Both the position numbers and the translations under genes were made by a program. From Alphaproteobacteria bacterium (GTDB lineage Bacteria > Pseudomonadota > Alphaproteobacteria > RF32 > CAG-239), in NCBI GenBank assembly GCA_017470585.1, contig JAFUYI010000017.1:1-38935 (forward strand): 38,935 bases of DNA, read 5' to 3'. Position 1 is the stretch's first letter; every line of letters starts with the position of its first letter. This document shows, piece by piece, positions 3,527-38,800 of the stretch. The notes under the pieces were generated by a model, which was not told the origin of the DNA, did not search any database, and worked only from the letters and a program-made list of their open reading frames with translations.

Positions 3527-3555
3527 TTTACAACAACAATCTTATTTGCTAGATT
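3527..3555 (+). promoter_or_regulatory. Promoter of leader RNA copy A
   Basis: -35 TTTACA (3527-3532), 17-bp spacer ending TTTGC (extended -10 TG), -10 TAGATT (3550-3555). The same arrangement precedes all six leaders in the window. Confidence 0.75.
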
Positions 3556-3561
3556 AACAAT

Positions 3562-3804
3562 AGCAAATGAAAATTTTGCAGAATCTCAAACGAGGTTCGG
3601 AGCTTTCAACGGCTCTTATCGTACACGGCATTGGTAATGTCGTCAGTCTGTGGGCAAAACGCCTTTGCGGACACTTATCTGGGTATTATGCCCGGGAGCT
3701 TATAGTGTATGTCCAATAGGTTCGCCTTTAAAGACTATAAGAGTCATTTTGTACGATATGATTGTTGAACTCCCGGACACCTCGCTCGAGGTGTCTGTTT
3801 TGGC
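3562..3804 (+). ncRNA. Structured leader RNA, divergent copy A
   Basis: A leader of about 240 nt before a secreted-protein gene. Its sequence differs widely from the other five leaders but keeps their architecture. P1 is TTCAAC (3605-3610) with GTTGAA (3764-3769). P2 is ATCGTACA (3618-3625) with TGTACGAT (3750-3757). A local hairpin pairs TCTGGGT (3678-3684) with GCCCGGGA (3690-3697) around loop ATTAT. The exchange strand CCGGGAG (3692-3698) is also complementary to CTCCCGG (3770-3776), outside P1, which would form a pseudoknot. GAGGT (3592-3596) can pair with the ACCTC of the terminator arm. The rest is a stem-rich insert not present in the others. Confidence 0.7.
3776..3803 (+). terminator. 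Intrinsic terminator ending leader A
   Basis: GACACCTCG / CGAGGTGTC forms a near-perfect hairpin followed by TGTTTT, only about 24 nt before the start codon at 3827, so the gene requires readthrough. Its 5' arm overlaps the leader's exchange strand by one base. Confidence 0.75.
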
Positions 3805-3826
3805 ATAAAAAAAGGAGTTAATACCC

Positions 3827-4378
3827 ATGAATAAGACTTTTTTAACCTTACTTTTAACCGGCATATCATATACTGCCTATAACGCAGCCGCTGTATCCGA
3901 AAATTTTGAAATCTCCACCACCATTGACCACGAAATAGTTTTAGGCAGTTTCCGCGCTTCGGCAACTGATGCTGATTTAACCAAAACCGATGATATAAAT
4001 TTAGGCACGATTTATGTTAACCCGGCGTTCAAGGAAACCCATGCTTGGTTTAGCTATAACGAATTAGGAGAAATGGATAGTGTGGAAGGCGATTTTATTG
4101 TTCGGGCAGATCGTGCCACTGTTGGCAGATTCACCGCCAATATCACTAACCCGGAAGCTTGCACAAATCGAGCTATATCCTGCGGAGGGTTAAGTATTAC
4201 ACGAAAAAAAGCTTTGTTCGGCGGAAGTGCTTCAAGCAACTGGTGCAATTTTTACATTAAATACAGCGGAAACGATAATGTTTTCACGGTATCGCCGAAT
4301 TGTAATTTTGATAATCCGGCAGACGTTACTCTCGGACCTCATAAGGCAACTCTAACCATTTCTTATAATGCGGGATAA
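3827..4378 (+). CDS. Secreted four-cysteine beta-rich protein, family copy A
   Basis: A 183-residue protein with signal peptide (residues 1-21, ending NAAA). The mature part has the family pattern: TTIDHEI, DDINLGTIYVNP, GRFTANITNPEAC, SCGGLS, WCNFYIKYSG, SPNC and a final LTISYNAG strand. Four conserved cysteines suggest two disulfides. The alternating strands and LGTI...NP motif resemble DUF4402-type or fimbrial-subunit-like sandwich proteins; that fold call is inference. AAGGAG lies 9 nt before the ATG. Its closest relative here is the minus-strand copy at 35674-36237, with a matching signal peptide and early mature region. It is monocistronic, with its own promoter, leader and terminator. 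Confidence 0.8.
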   Translation: MNKTFLTLLLTGISYTAYNAAAVSENFEISTTIDHEIVLGSFRASATDADLTKTDDINLGTIYVNPAFKETHAWFSYNELGEMDSVEGDFIVRADRATVGRFTANITNPEACTNRAISCGGLSITRKKALFGGSASSNWCNFYIKYSGNDNVFTVSPNCNFDNPADVTLGPHKATLTISYNAG

Positions 4379-14207: not shown

Positions 14208-14406
14208 GAAGTGAGCAAAAAGCCGCTTTGAGGTTTAGAACCCTCGTAAGTACCGTTTGTATCAAGACGTAGTTTGATATATCCGACTTTTATGGTTGGA
14301 AGGCAGGGAAATAAGGCTTGTCCCCAATACTTTGCACTATTGTACTTAATAGGTTCTAACTTCCAGCCACCTCGCGGGTTTTAATGCCCAAAAGGTGGTT
14401 TTTCTT
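14208..14406 (+). ncRNA. Structured leader RNA, copy B
   Basis: About 200 nt. P1 is TTAGAACC (14235-14242) with GGTTCTAA (14352-14359). P2 is TAAGTAC (14247-14253) with GTACTTA (14342-14348). A side hairpin TATCAA/TTTGATA lies at about 14260-14279. A local hairpin pairs TCCGAC (14283-14288) with GUUGGA. The exchange strand GGTTGGAAG (14294-14302) alternatively pairs with CTTCCAGCC (14360-14368), outside P1 (pseudoknot). GAGGT (14230-14234), extended by CCGC, can pair with ACCTC plus GCGG in the terminator arm. Helix sequences differ from the other copies while pairing is kept. Confidence 0.8.
14367..14406 (+). terminator. Intrinsic terminator ending leader B
   Basis: CCACCT (14367-14372) pairs with AGGTGG (14393-14398), with an inner GGG/CCC stem, followed by TTTTTCTTT. 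It ends about 30 nt before the start codon and overlaps the exchange-strand partner by two C residues. Confidence 0.8.
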
Positions 14407-14435: not shown

Positions 14436-14945
14436 ATGATGAATAAATATATTTTAATGCTTGGCGTTGCCGGTGTCGCTCTTGGCTCATATTGCGCCTA
14501 CGCAAGCAACTCGGCAACTATGACAGTAACCGCGACCATAGCCCATGATGTGAGTTTGGTTGCAACATCGCCACTTAATATGGGAACACTAACCATTGAT
14601 CCGTCTGATGCAACCGGTAGTTATATAAATCTTAATGGTGACGGCACGACAGGTAGTAAAGGCGGCGGTATTATCTCCTTAACCGGCTTTTCGGCAGGAA
14701 CTTTTACTGCCAATGTCCCCGATTCGTGCAAGGTTGATGATGTTATTGCGCATAATTATACTGAGAGATTATGCTTTCGAGCTGGTGATATTAACCTTGG
14801 CGGGGTTGATTTTATAGAACCATCTGTGAGCTATGTATCCGGAAATACTTTCAAATTTATGTATGATATAATAAGCTATGAAGCAGGAATAATTCCGACT
14901 TCAGGTGATTACAGCCAAAATGTGACCATTGAATATACTTTATAA
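14436..14945 (+). CDS. Secreted beta-rich protein, family copy B
   Basis: A 169-residue protein; a second ATG three bases downstream (14439) aligns with the start of copy C and may be the true start. AAGGAAG precedes it. The signal peptide (MNKYILMLGVAGVALGSYCAYA) and first mature residues (NSATMTVTATIAHDVSL) are nearly identical to copies C and D. After that the sequence diverges: it keeps LNMGTLTIDP and GTFTANVPDSC but loses most of the CGGL and C.F.IKYSG blocks, and ends NVTIEYTL. It is probably exported to the periplasm or surface. A conserved front with a variable rear is the family theme. Confidence 0.8.
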   Translation: MMNKYILMLGVAGVALGSYCAYASNSATMTVTATIAHDVSLVATSPLNMGTLTIDPSDATGSYINLNGDGTTGSKGGGIISLTGFSAGTFTANVPDSCKVDDVIAHNYTERLCFRAGDINLGGVDFIEPSVSYVSGNTFKFMYDIISYEAGIIPTSGDYSQNVTIEYTL

Positions 14946-20103: not shown

Positions 20104-20303
20104 TGAAACGGATAAAAAGCCGTTTTGAGGTGTGAAGACCTCTCAAGTATTGTCCGTAAAGACATAAAACTACTTCTAACCATATTATGGTTGGAAGGTG
20201 GAGGAATAAGGATAAAACCAAATACTCTGCACTGTTATACTTGACAGTCTTCAACTTCCAACCACCTCTAAGGTTTAATGCCCGAAAGGTGGTTTTCTTT
20301 TTT
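20104..20303 (+). ncRNA. Structured leader RNA, copy C
   Basis: P1 is TGAAGAC (20133-20139) with GTCTTCA (20247-20253). P2 is CAAGTAT (20144-20150) with ATACTTG (20237-20243). A local hairpin pairs TTCTAACC (20174-20181) with GGTTGGAA around ATATTAT. The exchange strand GGTTGGAAG (20189-20197) is also perfectly complementary to CTTCCAACC (20255-20263), outside P1. GAGGTG (20127-20132) can pair with CACCTC (20263-20268), the terminator's 5' arm. This copy shows the alternative pairings most clearly because almost all are Watson-Crick. Confidence 0.82.
20262..20303 (+). terminator. Intrinsic terminator ending leader C
   Basis: CCACCT pairs with AGGTGG (20287-20292), followed by TTTTCTTTTTT; it ends about 30 nt before the start codon. 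Confidence 0.8.
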
Positions 20304-20334: not shown

Positions 20335-20877
20335 ATGAATAAATATATTTTAATGCTCGGCGTTGCAGGCGTTGCATTTGGCTCTTATGCCGCCTATGCG
20401 GGCAATTCCGCCACAATGACCGTAACAGCCACAATCGCCCACGATGTGAGCCTAACCAAAACCGGCGATATAAATTTAGGTACCATCACTATCAATCCGG
20501 CTTATACGGGAGATGATACAAACTGGTCTTATAGCGATTCGGGGGTAATCAATTTAAACTCTCAAGGAGCGATTGTTTCGGCAGATAATGCTACTGTCGG
20601 CACTTTTACGGCTAATATCCCCAATCCGTCTGCCTGCAGTGCAGGAGAATATTCCTGCGGAGGGTTGATAATAGATGCCGGTAGCGGTGACGGTGAGATT
20701 ATGCACAATGTCTTTGGGGGGGATAGTGATGATTATTGCGCCTTTATTATAAAATACAGCGGTTCGGGAAACAGCTTTAAGGTATATCCGCAGAGTTGCG
20801 CTATTTACGATGTATCAACAGTTGGTATCGGTGATCATTCACACACCATAACCATAAACTATTCAACCGGCGGCTAA
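20335..20877 (+). CDS. Secreted four-cysteine beta-rich protein, family copy C
   Basis: A 180-residue protein with signal peptide (1-22, ending AYA) and mature start GNSATMTVTATIAHDVSL. The core blocks are complete: GDINLGTITINPAYTG, GTFTANIPNPSAC, YSCGGL, VFGGDSDDYCAFIIKYSGSGNSF, a last cysteine (QSCAIYDV) and ITINYSTGG. The four core cysteines agree with copies A, D and F. AGGAAG precedes the ATG. The fold is probably an Ig-like or DUF4402-like sandwich (inference). It is a good family reference sequence. Confidence 0.82.
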   Translation: MNKYILMLGVAGVAFGSYAAYAGNSATMTVTATIAHDVSLTKTGDINLGTITINPAYTGDDTNWSYSDSGVINLNSQGAIVSADNATVGTFTANIPNPSACSAGEYSCGGLIIDAGSGDGEIMHNVFGGDSDDYCAFIIKYSGSGNSFKVYPQSCAIYDVSTVGIGDHSHTITINYSTGG

Positions 20878-21678: not shown

Positions 21679-21870
21679 GAAGTGAATGAAAAGTCACTTT
21701 GAGGTGTTGCTACCTCTCATTCAGTGTCCTATCAAGACATAAAATTTGCTTTCAGCCTGATTATGGTTGGAAGGTAGGGAAATAAGGCTTGCCAAATACT
21801 CTACACTGTTCTGAATGACAGTAGCAAACTTCCAATCACCTCGTCTGTATGTCGGGGTGGTTTCTTTTTT
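21679..21870 (+). ncRNA. Structured leader RNA, copy D
   Basis: P1 is TTGCTAC (21707-21713) with GTAGCAA (21821-21827). P2 is CATTCAG (21718-21724) with CTGAATG (21811-21817). A small hairpin TGTC/GACA lies near 21725-21738. A local hairpin pairs CTTTCAGCC (21749-21757) with GGTTGGAAG (21765-21773) around TGATTAT. That exchange strand alternatively pairs with CTTCCAATC (21829-21837), outside P1. GAGGTG (21701-21706) can pair with CACCTC in the terminator arm. Confidence 0.8.
21835..21870 (+). terminator. Intrinsic terminator ending leader D
   Basis: ATCACC pairs with GGTGGT (about 21856-21861), followed by TTTCTTTTTT; weaker than in copies B, C and E. It ends about 30 nt before the start codon. 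Confidence 0.68.
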
Positions 21871-21900: not shown

Positions 21901-22437
21901 ATGAAAAACTATATTTTAATGCTCGGCGTGGCGGGAGTTGCCTTTGGCACTTATGCCGCATACGCCGACAACTCGGCAACAATGACCGTTACTGCCACAA
22001 TCGCCCACGATGTGAGCTTAACTGTAACTCAAGATATAGACTTTGGCACAATTACCATCAATCCGGGATATACTGGCAGTACATCTTGGCAATATAGCTA
22101 TGAATCTGGTGCAGTCGAATATATTGATCAAGGAGCTATTGTTTCGGCAGATGATATTACGTTCGGCACTTTTACCGCAAATATTCCCAATCCTTCGGCT
22201 TGTAATATGCCAAATGATGCTTGCGGCGGTTTAGATGTTTCTGGAAACGAAGGGGATACTATTTATAATCTCTTTGGAGGAAGTGATAATTCCAACTATT
22301 GCTATATTCATACGAAATACACTGGATCTGATCACAATTTCATTATGTCTGCTGATTATTGTGCAATATACGACATCTCAAAAGTCACCACCGGCTCGCA
22401 CACTGGTACTGTAACCATTAGCTACACGCCAAGCTGA
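21901..22437 (+). CDS. Secreted four-cysteine beta-rich protein, family copy D
   Basis: A 178-residue protein starting at ATG 21901 (MKNYILMLGVAG); a TTG two codons earlier is less likely given AAGGAAG at its normal distance. The signal peptide ends AYA and the mature start is DNSATMTVTATIAHDVSL, as in copies B and C. Core blocks: DIDFGTITINPGYTG, GTFTANIPNPSAC, ACGGLDVSG, LFGGSDNSNYCYIHTKYTGSDHNF, a final cysteine (DYCAIYD) and TGTVTISYTPS. It has its own promoter, leader and terminator. Likely exported; role unknown. Confidence 0.82.
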   Translation: MKNYILMLGVAGVAFGTYAAYADNSATMTVTATIAHDVSLTVTQDIDFGTITINPGYTGSTSWQYSYESGAVEYIDQGAIVSADDITFGTFTANIPNPSACNMPNDACGGLDVSGNEGDTIYNLFGGSDNSNYCYIHTKYTGSDHNFIMSADYCAIYDISKVTTGSHTGTVTISYTPS

Positions 22438-30082: not shown

Positions 30083-30275
30083 GAAGCGAAGGATTTTCGC
30101 TTTGAGGTGTGATAGCCTCTCAATAGGCGTTTTTGAAAAACGTAAAATTCTTTCAGCCGGATTATGGTTGGAAGGTAGAGGAATAAAAATTATCGAATAC
30201 TCTGCACTGATCCTATTGTCAGCTATCAACTTCCAGCCACCTCGCGGGTTTAATACCCAAAAGGTGGTTTTTCTT
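30083..30275 (+). ncRNA. Structured leader RNA, copy E
   Basis: P1 is TGATAGC (30110-30116) with GCTATCA (30222-30228). P2 is CAATAGG (30121-30127) with CCTATTG (30212-30218). A side hairpin CGTTTTT/AAAAACG lies near 30128-30142. A local hairpin pairs CTTTCAGCC (30150-30158) with GGTTGGAAG (30166-30174). That exchange strand alternatively pairs with CTTCCAGCC (30230-30238), outside P1. GAGGTG (30104-30109) can pair with CACCTC at the terminator arm. Confidence 0.82.
30237..30275 (+). terminator. Intrinsic terminator ending leader E
   Basis: CCACCT pairs with AGGTGG (30262-30267), inner GGG/CCC stem, then TTTTTCTTT; about 33 nt before the start codon. Confidence 0.8.
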
Positions 30276-30307: not shown

Positions 30308-30778
30308 ATGAAAAATTATATTTTAATGCTCGGCGTTGCCGGTGTCTTCATAAGCAGTTATGCAGCCTATGCTGATAACGAAGCAACGATGAATGTGACA
30401 GCCACGATAGCTCACGAAACAAATATTCGTAATGTCCGCGATATTGAAATCGGAACAATTACTATTGATCCGAGTTATGACAGGGGATCTGCCTTTGAAA
30501 ATGACTGTCAATGGATGAACGTAAGCAATAGCATAGAATCCATATCCGGAAGTCCTTGCGGATATTTTACCGCAAATTTTGCGAGTGGCTTTACCTGCGG
30601 CGCAGTCTTCGAGGTTACCCCCAACGCTGTTGATTGGAATAATATGCACTTTGACTTTGGAGTTTCTGGCACAGACACTGCTGATCAATGCAAAGTATGG
30701 GTCGAGTTTTCCTATGACGGCATTCCTGCTGTTGATGACTTTGAAACAGAACTTCTCATATCCTATGCACAGGAATAA
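30308..30778 (+). CDS. Secreted beta-rich protein, divergent family copy E
   Basis: A 156-residue protein with the shared signal peptide (MKNYILMLGVAGV...AYA) and mature start DNEATMNVTATIAHE. After IEIGTITIDPSYDRG it diverges: GYFTANFASGFTCGAVFEV and CKVWVEFSYDG keep the strand order, but the cysteines are in different places (four, including CQWMN and SPCGYF) and the CGGL block is lost. It ends ELLISYAQE. GGAAG precedes the ATG. This, with copy B, marks the most variable end of the family. Confidence 0.78.
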   Translation: MKNYILMLGVAGVFISSYAAYADNEATMNVTATIAHETNIRNVRDIEIGTITIDPSYDRGSAFENDCQWMNVSNSIESISGSPCGYFTANFASGFTCGAVFEVTPNAVDWNNMHFDFGVSGTDTADQCKVWVEFSYDGIPAVDDFETELLISYAQE

Positions 30779-35673: not shown

Positions 35674-36237
35674 TTATTCGGGATTGTATTCTATACTTAT
35701 TGTGCTTGTATGCGTACCTGCAACCGTATTCACATCAACCGGTTTTTCATAACTGCAACCGTAAGGATATACCTTAAAAGTGTTTCCCGAAACATATTTT
35801 ATATAAAAACCGCAGGTGTTTTGCTTTCCCGCTCCCAATATCCCACCTAAATGATTAGGCGACAACGACAATCCGCCGCAGGATGATGTTTGACCCCTGC
35901 AAGCTTCGGGATTTGGTATATCGGCGTTAAAATATCCCACCGTGATATTAGTTGCCGACACAACCGGTCCATAAGTTTGTCGCACCACACCGTTTTCATT
36001 ATACCACACAAAGCCGTATGTGTTTTCCGGATTATTTAAATTAACCGTGATCGTACCTAAATTTATATCACCGGTTACATTTAAATTTGCATCGGCACTT
36101 GCGGCTCGGAAATTGCCCAAGGTTATTTCGTGGTCGATGGTGGTGGAAATTGCAAAATTTTCGGATACCGCCGCGGCGTTATAGGCGGTGCAAGATATGC
36201 CTGCTAATAGAATTGTCAAAAAAGTTTTGTTTGTCAT
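35674..36237 (-). CDS. Secreted four-cysteine beta-rich protein, family copy F
   Basis: A 187-residue protein and the only complete family copy on the minus strand. Signal peptide MTNKTFLTILLAGISCTAYNAAA, then TTIDHEITLGNF, GDINLGTITVNL, GYFNADIPNPEAC, SSCGGLSLS, NTCGFYIKYVSGNTFKVYPYGC and TSTISIEYNPE. The protein pairs with copy A (shared signal peptide and TTIDHE region), but its leader RNA resembles copies B-E, so protein and leader have different closest relatives. GAGGAAG precedes the ATG. No clear terminator hairpin follows the stop codon. Confidence 0.8.
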   Translation of the reverse strand: MTNKTFLTILLAGISCTAYNAAAVSENFAISTTIDHEITLGNFRAASADANLNVTGDINLGTITVNLNNPENTYGFVWYNENGVVRQTYGPVVSATNITVGYFNADIPNPEACRGQTSSCGGLSLSPNHLGGILGAGKQNTCGFYIKYVSGNTFKVYPYGCSYEKPVDVNTVAGTHTSTISIEYNPE

Positions 36238-36270: not shown

Positions 36271-36312
36271 AAAAAAAGAAACCACCTTTCGAGCATTTGC
36301 CCCGGAGGTGGT
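36271..36312 (-). terminator. Intrinsic terminator ending leader F
   Basis: Minus strand: CCACCT pairs with AGGTGG, followed by TTTCTTTTTTT; about 34 nt before the start codon. Confidence 0.78.
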
Positions 36313-36469
36313 CGGAAGTTAGCAACTATCAGTTATAATAGTCCCGCGTATTTGTAAAATTACTTATTCCGCAGGCTTCCGACCATAAGCCGGATATAAA
36401 CCAAATAACGCTTTGGTAAAACGATAACTGAAAGGTTGCTACACCTCAAAGCGGCTTTTCGCTCGCTTC
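36271..36469 (-). ncRNA. Structured leader RNA, copy F
   Basis: Read on the minus strand. P1 is TAGCAAC (36435-36441) with GTTGCTA (36320-36326). P2 is CAGTTAT (36424-36430) with ATAACTG (36330-36336). A local hairpin pairs TCCGGC (36389-36394) with GUCGGA. The exchange strand GGTCGGAAG (36376-36384) also pairs with CTTCCGACC (36310-36318), outside P1. Relative to the GGTTGGAAG/CTTCCAACC of copy C, both strands changed together (U to C, A to G), a compensatory substitution in the pseudoknot helix. GAGGTG lies just 5' of P1, as in the others. Confidence 0.82.
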
Positions 36470-37913: not shown

Positions 37914-38160
37914 TTTTGTTTCCCTTTTATTGCCGCAAGCATAGCAAAAATTTTTCAATAATCAAGTTTTATTTTTATCAGAACCGCAGGCGTTTAACTA
38001 AAAAATATTGTGCATTGTTTGCCTGCTCATCCTTGTTTTTCAACTCGGGGTGTAAGCGATGGTGAGGGGTGAACTCCGATTGCCGGGAATTATTGCAAAT
38101 TTCCCTGATAATACTCAACCTTCCGCAAACACCTTCAAATTCCGTACAGACCGAAGGATT
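37914..38160. other. Intergenic stretch with no supported gene
   Basis: A short minus-strand frame (37978-38178) would encode 66 residues beginning in a repeat and ending QYFLVKRLRF, with no Shine-Dalgarno and no recognisable domain. Its sequence is not a simple repeat translation past residue 12, so it might be the decayed end of a gene or mobile element. I see nothing else in the stretch. Confidence 0.35.
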
Positions 38161-38800
38161 GTCGTCCTGCCACCCCAATTGTCGTCCTGAATAACCAAGC
38201 TGTCGTCCGGAACTCCCCCAAAATTGTCGTCCTGAACCACCAAGCTGTCGTTCCGAACTCCCCCTTGTTGTCCTAAACGCCCCCTTTGTCGTCCTGAACT
38301 TGTTTCAGGACCTCTAAAAAAGATGCTGAAACAAGTTCAGCATGACGTTGGAAGAGTAAGCCTAAATACCATTTTTGTCATCCTGAACTCGTTTCAGGAT
38401 CTCTAAAAAAGATGCTGAAACAAGTTCAGCCCCATTTCCTTTTTATGCCGTGCTTGACCTGATTATCCATTCCCCTCACTGATGTCATTGTCGGGCTTGA
38501 TCCGGCAATCCAGGTCTATAAATCAGCAAATTGTTTTACATGGACGCCGCATCAAGTGCGGCGTGACATAGGAGGGGAAGAACGCCGAAACAAGTTCGGC
38601 TTTGATGACAAGGAAAAGTAAGGCTAAACACCGGTTTTGTCGTCATGAACACACCCAATTGTCGTCCTGAACTTGTTTCAGGACCTCTAACCTAGATGCT
38701 GAAACAAGTTCAGCAAGACAAGCAGGGTAAAATACCTCCCCTTTACGTCATGCCTCCACCGGCTGTAAGCCGGGGGTCAAGGCATCTCCCGAAATTTAGG
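38160..38800. repeat. Mosaic of dispersed palindromic repeats at the right side
   Basis: Contains a run of TTGTCGTCCTGAAC-type units (38160-38310), CTGAAC-TYGTTTCAG elements in both orientations (38289-38345, 38381-38430, 38661-38718), the palindrome GCCGCATCAAGTGCGGC (about 38545-38561) with the same left neighbour (GTCTATAA..CAAATTGTTTTAC) as at 499-525, and the CCACCGGC-TGTAAGCC unit inverted (38746-38789). No gene. Confidence 0.85.

Follow-up and report, generated by a model that had tools for sequence, protein, structure and literature searches.

The leader at 3599-3778 of the window (the whole 38,935-nucleotide stretch of alphaproteobacterial DNA that we analysed), with a terminator reaching to 3795, is probably a cis-acting switch with two mutually exclusive folds. 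This leader, which we refer to as copy A, stands before the gene at 3827 on the forward strand and would belong to a C4-like class of RNAs built on the core of sRNA-Xcc1. A sequence-only reading of the window had noticed copy A for having the RNA architecture of other leaders in almost entirely different sequence. The observation is real, and its core claims, that the architecture is shared and that the competing pairings are under selection, are supported. Copy A is moreover a separate and widespread second subclass of the leader RNA, which we class as its older branch.

All features of copy A lie on the forward strand. A promoter-like site can be read at 3527-3555 (TTTACA at 3527-3532, 17 bp, TAGATT at 3550-3555), and a TTTACA-N17-type box is found upstream of other leaders also. 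Two 5' hairpins occupy 3563-3598 in the minimum free energy (MFE) structure: GCAAA..UUUGC at 3563-3579 and GAAUCUC-AAAC-GAGGUUC at 3581-3598, the second of which differs among relatives with pairing kept (GAACC..GGUUC, GCGCCU..AGGUGC, UACCU..AGGUA). The element begins with the Pa hairpin GGAGC-UUUCAACG-GCUC (3599-3615, alignment A5), which is at the position homologous to GAGGU(loop)ACCUC in the type-B leaders described below and has the P1 5' strand in its loop. P1 (UUCAAC/GUUGAA, 3605-3610 / 3764-3769) was placed by alignment of copy-A types; P2 (UAUCGUACA/UGUACGAUA, 3617-3625 / 3750-3758) has nine pairs, is 100% paired and shows double changes in eight of them. Folding and homologs then give the P3 hairpin CGGCAUUGGUAAUGUCG at 3626-3642 and a freely varying hairpin at about 3646-3672, together spanning 3626-3678. 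The P4 hairpin CUGGG/CCCGG (3679-3683 / 3691-3695, within the part 3679-3698; folding and A5) shares a strand with the X4 exchange pair GCCCGGGAG/CUCCCGGAC (3690-3698 / 3770-3778, A5), as the segment at 3690-3698 doubles as the 3' strand of P4 and the 5' strand of X4. P5 (CUUAUAGU/ACUAUAAG, 3699-3741) is 100% paired with double changes in four pairs, and contains a core motif, GUAUGUCC at 3707-3714 and UAAAG at 3729-3733, that is invariant or nearly so in A5. It is followed by P6 (3744-3761, A5), a UCA/UGA hairpin whose loop is the 3' strand of P2, and by the 3' strands of P1 and X4 (3764-3778, A5), within which AACUCC at 3768-3773 is complementary to the Shine-Dalgarno (SD) sequence GGAGUU at 3814-3819, likewise read directly from the DNA. 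The terminator hairpin, seen in the sequence and in the MFE structure (3776-3803), pairs GACACCUCG (3776-3784) with CGAGGUGUC (3787-3795) and ends in the short U-rich UGUUUUGG. The regulated gene, at 3827-4378, encodes a 183-aa secreted-type protein that belongs to no Pfam family.

All the pairings that had been named for copy A (P1, P2, the local hairpin, the exchange pair and the terminator) were found. The stretch 3556-3826 has an MFE of -93.9 kcal/mol, against -65.7 ± 4.5 kcal/mol for its dinucleotide shuffles (z = -6.24), and none of 200 shuffles equalled it. Homology gives the stronger test: in a search of 480 kb, R1, a covariance model built from 59 other leaders of this genome with copy A left out, recovered copy A at full length (3600-3797, 24.6 bits, E = 1.6e-4). 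The proposal that the alternative pairings matter is supported by the strand common to P4 and X4, which covaries with both of its partners: in a de-duplicated set of 98 leaders of other genomes, pairing reaches 98.9% for X4 versus 90.3% after shuffling (z = 15), and 89.1% for P4 versus 80.2% (z = 12).

Several details of the sequence-only reading need to be revised. The GAGGT of copy A (3592-3596), taken there as the equivalent of the 5' element of other copies, is the 3' arm of copy A's own hairpin at 3581-3598; what corresponds by homology to GAGGU in the other copies is GGAGC at 3599-3603. The AUUAU loop described as conserved is local to this genome and is not kept in copy-A homologs of other species. 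The insert at 3626-3677 consists of P3 and a peripheral hairpin that is free to vary in sequence and length, and the suggested sensing role is not supported. Pairing is likewise kept where the X4 strands change, but the change is a few-pair covariation (GGUUGGAAG/CUUCCAACC versus GCCCGGGAG/CUCCCGGAC) and not a purine/pyrimidine swap.

R1 places five leaders of the commoner type, type B, in the window. Four are on the forward strand, at 14230-14401 (gene 14436-14945), 20127-20295 (gene 20335-20877; its MFE structure is the OFF fold described below, with the SD paired), 21701-21863 (gene 21901-22437) and 30104-30270 (gene 30308-30778), and one is on the reverse strand at 36279-36447 (gene 35677-36237, reverse strand). 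From 5' to 3', a type-B leader consists of a hairpin, Pa (GAGGU-loop-ACCUC, with the P1 5' strand in the loop), the P2 5' strand, P3, P4, P5 with an internal loop AAAUAAG/GAAUA, P6 (ACUGU-loop-ACAGU, with the P2 3' strand in the loop), the P1 3' strand, AACUUCCAACC (X4b), the terminator and the SD sequence GGAAGUU. On alignment A1 this structure has 98.2% paired cells versus 76.1% in shuffles (0/500). P1 and P2 of type B use all four Watson-Crick pairs and almost never G-U, in at least 99% of copies; among 118 distinct leaders, the four central columns of P1 hold no G-U cell and one mismatch, and P2 four G-U cells and one mismatch, whereas the G-U share is 19% in P4 and 12% in P5.

Type-B leaders are present in at least 150 copies in this genome (R1 gives at least 151 matches), nearly all before genes of one family of secreted proteins of about 180 aa, and a tblastn search with the copy-A protein gives at least 150 matches over the 1.55 Mb of the genome. 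Among 128 leaders, 126 stand directly before a gene of this family, 119 as assigned by BLAST and seven by reading the downstream sequence of cut or short stretches; of the remaining two, one sequence breaks off without reaching a gene and the other stands before a lipoprotein-like gene. A Pfam search of the protein family behind copy A returned no model, and the family weakly resembles a fimbrial protein model. Its genes occur at roughly one per 10 kb of the genome. The intergenic DNA at 520-1190 and 38160-38720 of the window carries imperfect short-repeat arrays with units of about 39 nt and 21 nt and the motif GTCNTCCTGAACTTGTTTCAGGA.

The combination of P1 and P2 differs between all 59 leaders. 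We considered selection for a unique barcode in each copy and rejected it, as the distinct strings number 33 for P1 versus 38.6 expected and 49 for P2 versus 58.0. Promoter, inner RNA, terminator and downstream segments are mutually unlinked among the leaders of this genome (alignment A2), which indicates heavy recombination between copies. A faster-than-neutral change of P1 was also rejected: P1 is unlinked to the rest of the leader, but so is every other segment, and this recombination accounts for the pattern.

Beyond this genome, R1 has matches in 24 of 39 relatives; across the order it detects the leader in 87 of 100 genomes, and across the class in 21 of 289. Protein searches of the genome contigs for relatives in named records found none, but a DNA-pattern search succeeded, leading to records of uncultured gut and rumen Alphaproteobacteria on which R1 identified 102 full-length leaders; a type-B pattern scan of viral contigs found none. 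The genes behind these foreign leaders encode outer-membrane proteins, lipoproteins, prepilin-like proteins and glycosyltransferases, and also HTH regulators, a PLD-like protein and an HSDR_N protein. Two genomes of other species of the family, G070 and G065, have many copies too (the counts are lower bounds), and at the G070 loci read, the genes behind the leaders encode prepilin-like proteins with the motif GRSMIEMLGVLAIIGVLSVGGIAGYSK.

Covariation among the 98 de-duplicated foreign leaders supports P1 (99.6% paired, z = 24), P2 (97.5%, z = 29), P5 (96.5%, z = 18), P6 (88.7%, z = 10) and the terminator (97.2%, z = 16), and indeed every helix except GAGGU:ACCUC. This last pairing, of the 5' end with the terminator arm, was considered as an antiterminator and rejected, covariation giving it no support (z = 1.6 in relatives). 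In relatives, the SD sequence scores 13.5 against the anti-SD of its own leader versus 12.5 against those of other leaders (s.d. 0.2; 0/2000 permutations), a modest covariation that in part reflects relatedness; examples of such anti-SD/SD pairs are AACUUCC/GGAAGUU (type B), AACUCCC/GGGAGUU and ACCUCC/GGAGGU.

Leaders of the copy-A type number five in this genome, with partial matches in four relatives. Among eight copy-A homologs, 97.4% of cells are paired, versus 79.3% after shuffling (0/500) and about 40% with the partner strand slid out of register. A set of 35 sequences aligned with the copy-A model gives 97.4% versus 67.3% (0/500); P1, P2, P5, P6 and X4 are kept through compensatory changes in the homologs. 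At the level of the order, R2, a model of the copy-A type, matches 71 of 83 genomes, and at that of the class 24 of 289; two relatives have at least 32 matches each. Two leaders (L078 and L210) join a type-B Pa to the copy-A core (GUAUGUCC...UAAAG). In GC-rich alphaproteobacterial genomes (L263-L268), copy-A-type RNAs precede genes of accessory type, among them HTH and DUF4268-like ones, and a second small hairpin, GCGG..CCGC, follows some of the RNAs.

At Rfam's own thresholds there is no match. Under a permissive search, copy A (E = 0.28) and the leaders L209, L078, L268 and L210 all pointed to the same family, sRNA-Xcc1 (RF02221). Copy A scores 20.3 bits, the best match in its genome 36.2 bits and L209, the best alphaproteobacterial leader examined, 44.1 bits (E = 6.6e-7 on a short stretch), all below the curated cut-off of 53; with the RF02221 model, three places in this genome reach E < 1e-3, two of which are R1 leaders. 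In topology the correspondence is closer: the 87-nt sRNA-Xcc1 consensus equals the X4-P5-P6 core of the leaders, its outer stem being X4, and in copy A and L209 these three helices align in order over positions 1-87, starting in copy A at the P4 part (3679-3698). Conversely, R1 recovered full-length matches among the 34 sRNA-Xcc1 loci tried, which include a coliphage: L276 (E = 6.3e-6), L307 (phage Rac-SA53, 0.0016) and L281 (0.01).

The likeness extends beyond what the Rfam family annotates. P1a and then P2a lie upstream of the Rfam match at 26 of 30 RF02221 loci (own score 14.3 versus 4.6 mismatched), and at 20 of 30 both segments recur around the SD sequence of the next gene (11.4 versus 6.3 mismatched). 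The next genes are of phage antirepressor type and include those for Bro-N, P22_AR_N, KilA-N and Phage_pRha proteins, and in phages the RNA is directly before ant (Aaphi23, Rac-SA53) or KilA-N (Acinetobacter phage 4316). The sRNA-Xcc1 RNA has been defined as an 88-nt RNA, seen as a transcript (PMC2996969), and in integron cassettes of Xanthomonas it is reported to precede symE (PMC12444791). It is described as a trans-acting sRNA, although its loci, like the window leaders, lie before genes; the window leaders differ from it in scoring below the cut-off, in having no copy at the SD and in having a terminator and an SD:anti-SD pairing instead. As an observation on the family itself, RF02221 (L276-L305; phages L306, L307 and L309) models the 3' half only, so that neither the decoy upstream nor the ribosome-binding-site copy is annotated, and it looks C4-like, with no clan reported by cmscan.

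The layout of the window leaders is also that of the C4 antisense RNAs of phages P1 and P7 (RF01695; c4-2, RF02944), in which an upstream hairpin with a1 in its loop and then b1 precede a core with an outer stem, a hairpin, a hairpin with b' in its loop and a' beside it. C4 acts on the transcript from the gene that follows it, and its action by such pairing is reportedly established for P1 and P7. At C4 loci (RF01695), the three-copy layout and the core topology are identical to those of sRNA-Xcc1 loci. In the window leaders, by comparison, the first two copies are present (P1 and P2) and the third, the a2/b2 target copy at the ribosome-binding site, is absent: a third barcode copy near the SD was found neither in the leaders of this genome nor in related ones (p = 0.4 and 0.2-0.45). 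C4 differs further in its long unbroken outer stem and in its core sequence. A search of this genome with RF01695 gave no match at E = 1e-5, and an R1 search of C4 loci found none, so that the link to C4 is one of layout. Among C4 relatives, c4-a1b1 has been described by Weinberg 2010 (PMC2864571), and in its passage on the C4 of P1/P7, PMC8201110 cites Citron and Schuster 1990. By thresholds the window leaders thus fall outside both RF02221 and RF01695, but searches in both directions support a full-length homology with sRNA-Xcc1 loci.

These comparisons suggest how the switch might work. In the phage form, the core segments P2b and P1b can pair either with the upstream P1a and P2a or with the downstream copy at the ribosome-binding site, a dual possibility that can be seen in the sequences of both sRNA-Xcc1 and C4 loci. 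In the alphaproteobacterial form of the window the downstream copy is missing, and the RNA would now be a cis switch before host genes. In the leader fold, P1 and P2 would close the domain, P4 would form and X4b would be left free, so that the terminator could form and the SD of any read-through mRNA would pair with X4b (OFF). In the C4-like fold, X4 would form around P5 and P6, breaking P4 and P1, and by taking the terminator base together with the anti-SD would free the SD (ON). The pairings and their covariation are observed; the assignment of ON to one fold and the existence of a signal that selects it we infer. The exclusive partners share nucleotides: P4 and X4 one strand, P6 and P1 two bases, and X4 and the terminator two bases, the first two of the terminator, which is 97-100% paired with covariation. 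P2 could form a kissing pair with P6 that is not exclusive. Folding favours OFF by 8.6 ± 4.9 kcal/mol for the full leader (122 leaders) and by 6.7 ± 3.5 kcal/mol before the terminator is made; the default is therefore presumably OFF, and something would have to stabilise the other fold. As in a transcription attenuator, an intrinsic terminator lies between promoter and start codon and is exclusive with a conserved helix, X4. Attenuation leaders and terminator riboswitches likewise have exclusive helices, an intrinsic terminator and SD sequestration; unlike them, the window leaders have no conserved leader peptide and match no Rfam riboswitch.

The same two folds would serve a true riboswitch, in which the P3-P4-P5 junction, above all the internal loop of P5, binds a small molecule; the core motifs AAAUAAG..GAAUA (type B) and GUAUGUCC..UAAAG (type A) would then mean two ligand variants. 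We regard this as unlikely. The unpaired core motifs are nearly invariant in every copy, and the terminator platform and the wide envelope-gene regulon of relatives would suit it, but besides the lack of a riboswitch match in Rfam, the homology leads to C4 and sRNA-Xcc1, RNAs without a known ligand, and no metabolite is common to surface proteins, pilin-like proteins, glycosyltransferases, antirepressors and restriction-like genes. With c-di-GMP as the candidate ligand, only one weak GGDEF domain was found above cut-off in the genome.

It is quite improbable that the terminated leader is a trans-acting small RNA with other mRNAs as its targets, the role proposed for sRNA-Xcc1. That RNA was seen as an 88-nt transcript, and terminated leaders would be about 230 nt long; however, the P1 and P2 segments are copy-specific and pair within their own leader, with no copy downstream or upstream, and nearly every leader adjoins a coding gene of one family. 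More doubtful still is a recombination element for the exchange of surface-gene cassettes, its structure kept for reasons of DNA or RNA other than expression. The unlinked segments look as if shuffled, and P1 and P2 are nearly free of G-U as in a DNA inverted repeat, but the G-U pairs of P4 and P5 argue that these helices are selected as RNA, and the structure persists in other species, in single-copy leaders that stand before unrelated genes.

As to where this switch came from, we tentatively suggest that a C4-type phage RNA may have been captured by the host, lost its antisense target and, throughout the Alphaproteobacteria, taken on a general role as a cis attenuator of surface and accessory genes. 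It may then have been amplified to tens or hundreds of copies here and in at least two relatives, with hypervariable but strictly complementary P1/P2 'barcodes' in each copy giving copy-specific control over the surface proteins produced. Searches of the literature turned up no earlier description of such a class. The leaders link three things that had been separate: sRNA-Xcc1, annotated as trans-acting only, the phage C4 switch and an undescribed leader class that ranges over 87 of 100 genomes of an uncultured gut and rumen alphaproteobacterial order. For sRNA-Xcc1 loci they offer a testable mechanism, in which P2b and P1b would choose between the upstream decoy and the ribosome-binding site, and for this organism they raise the question of why the same switch stands before at least 150 secreted-protein genes in a genome of 1.55 Mb.
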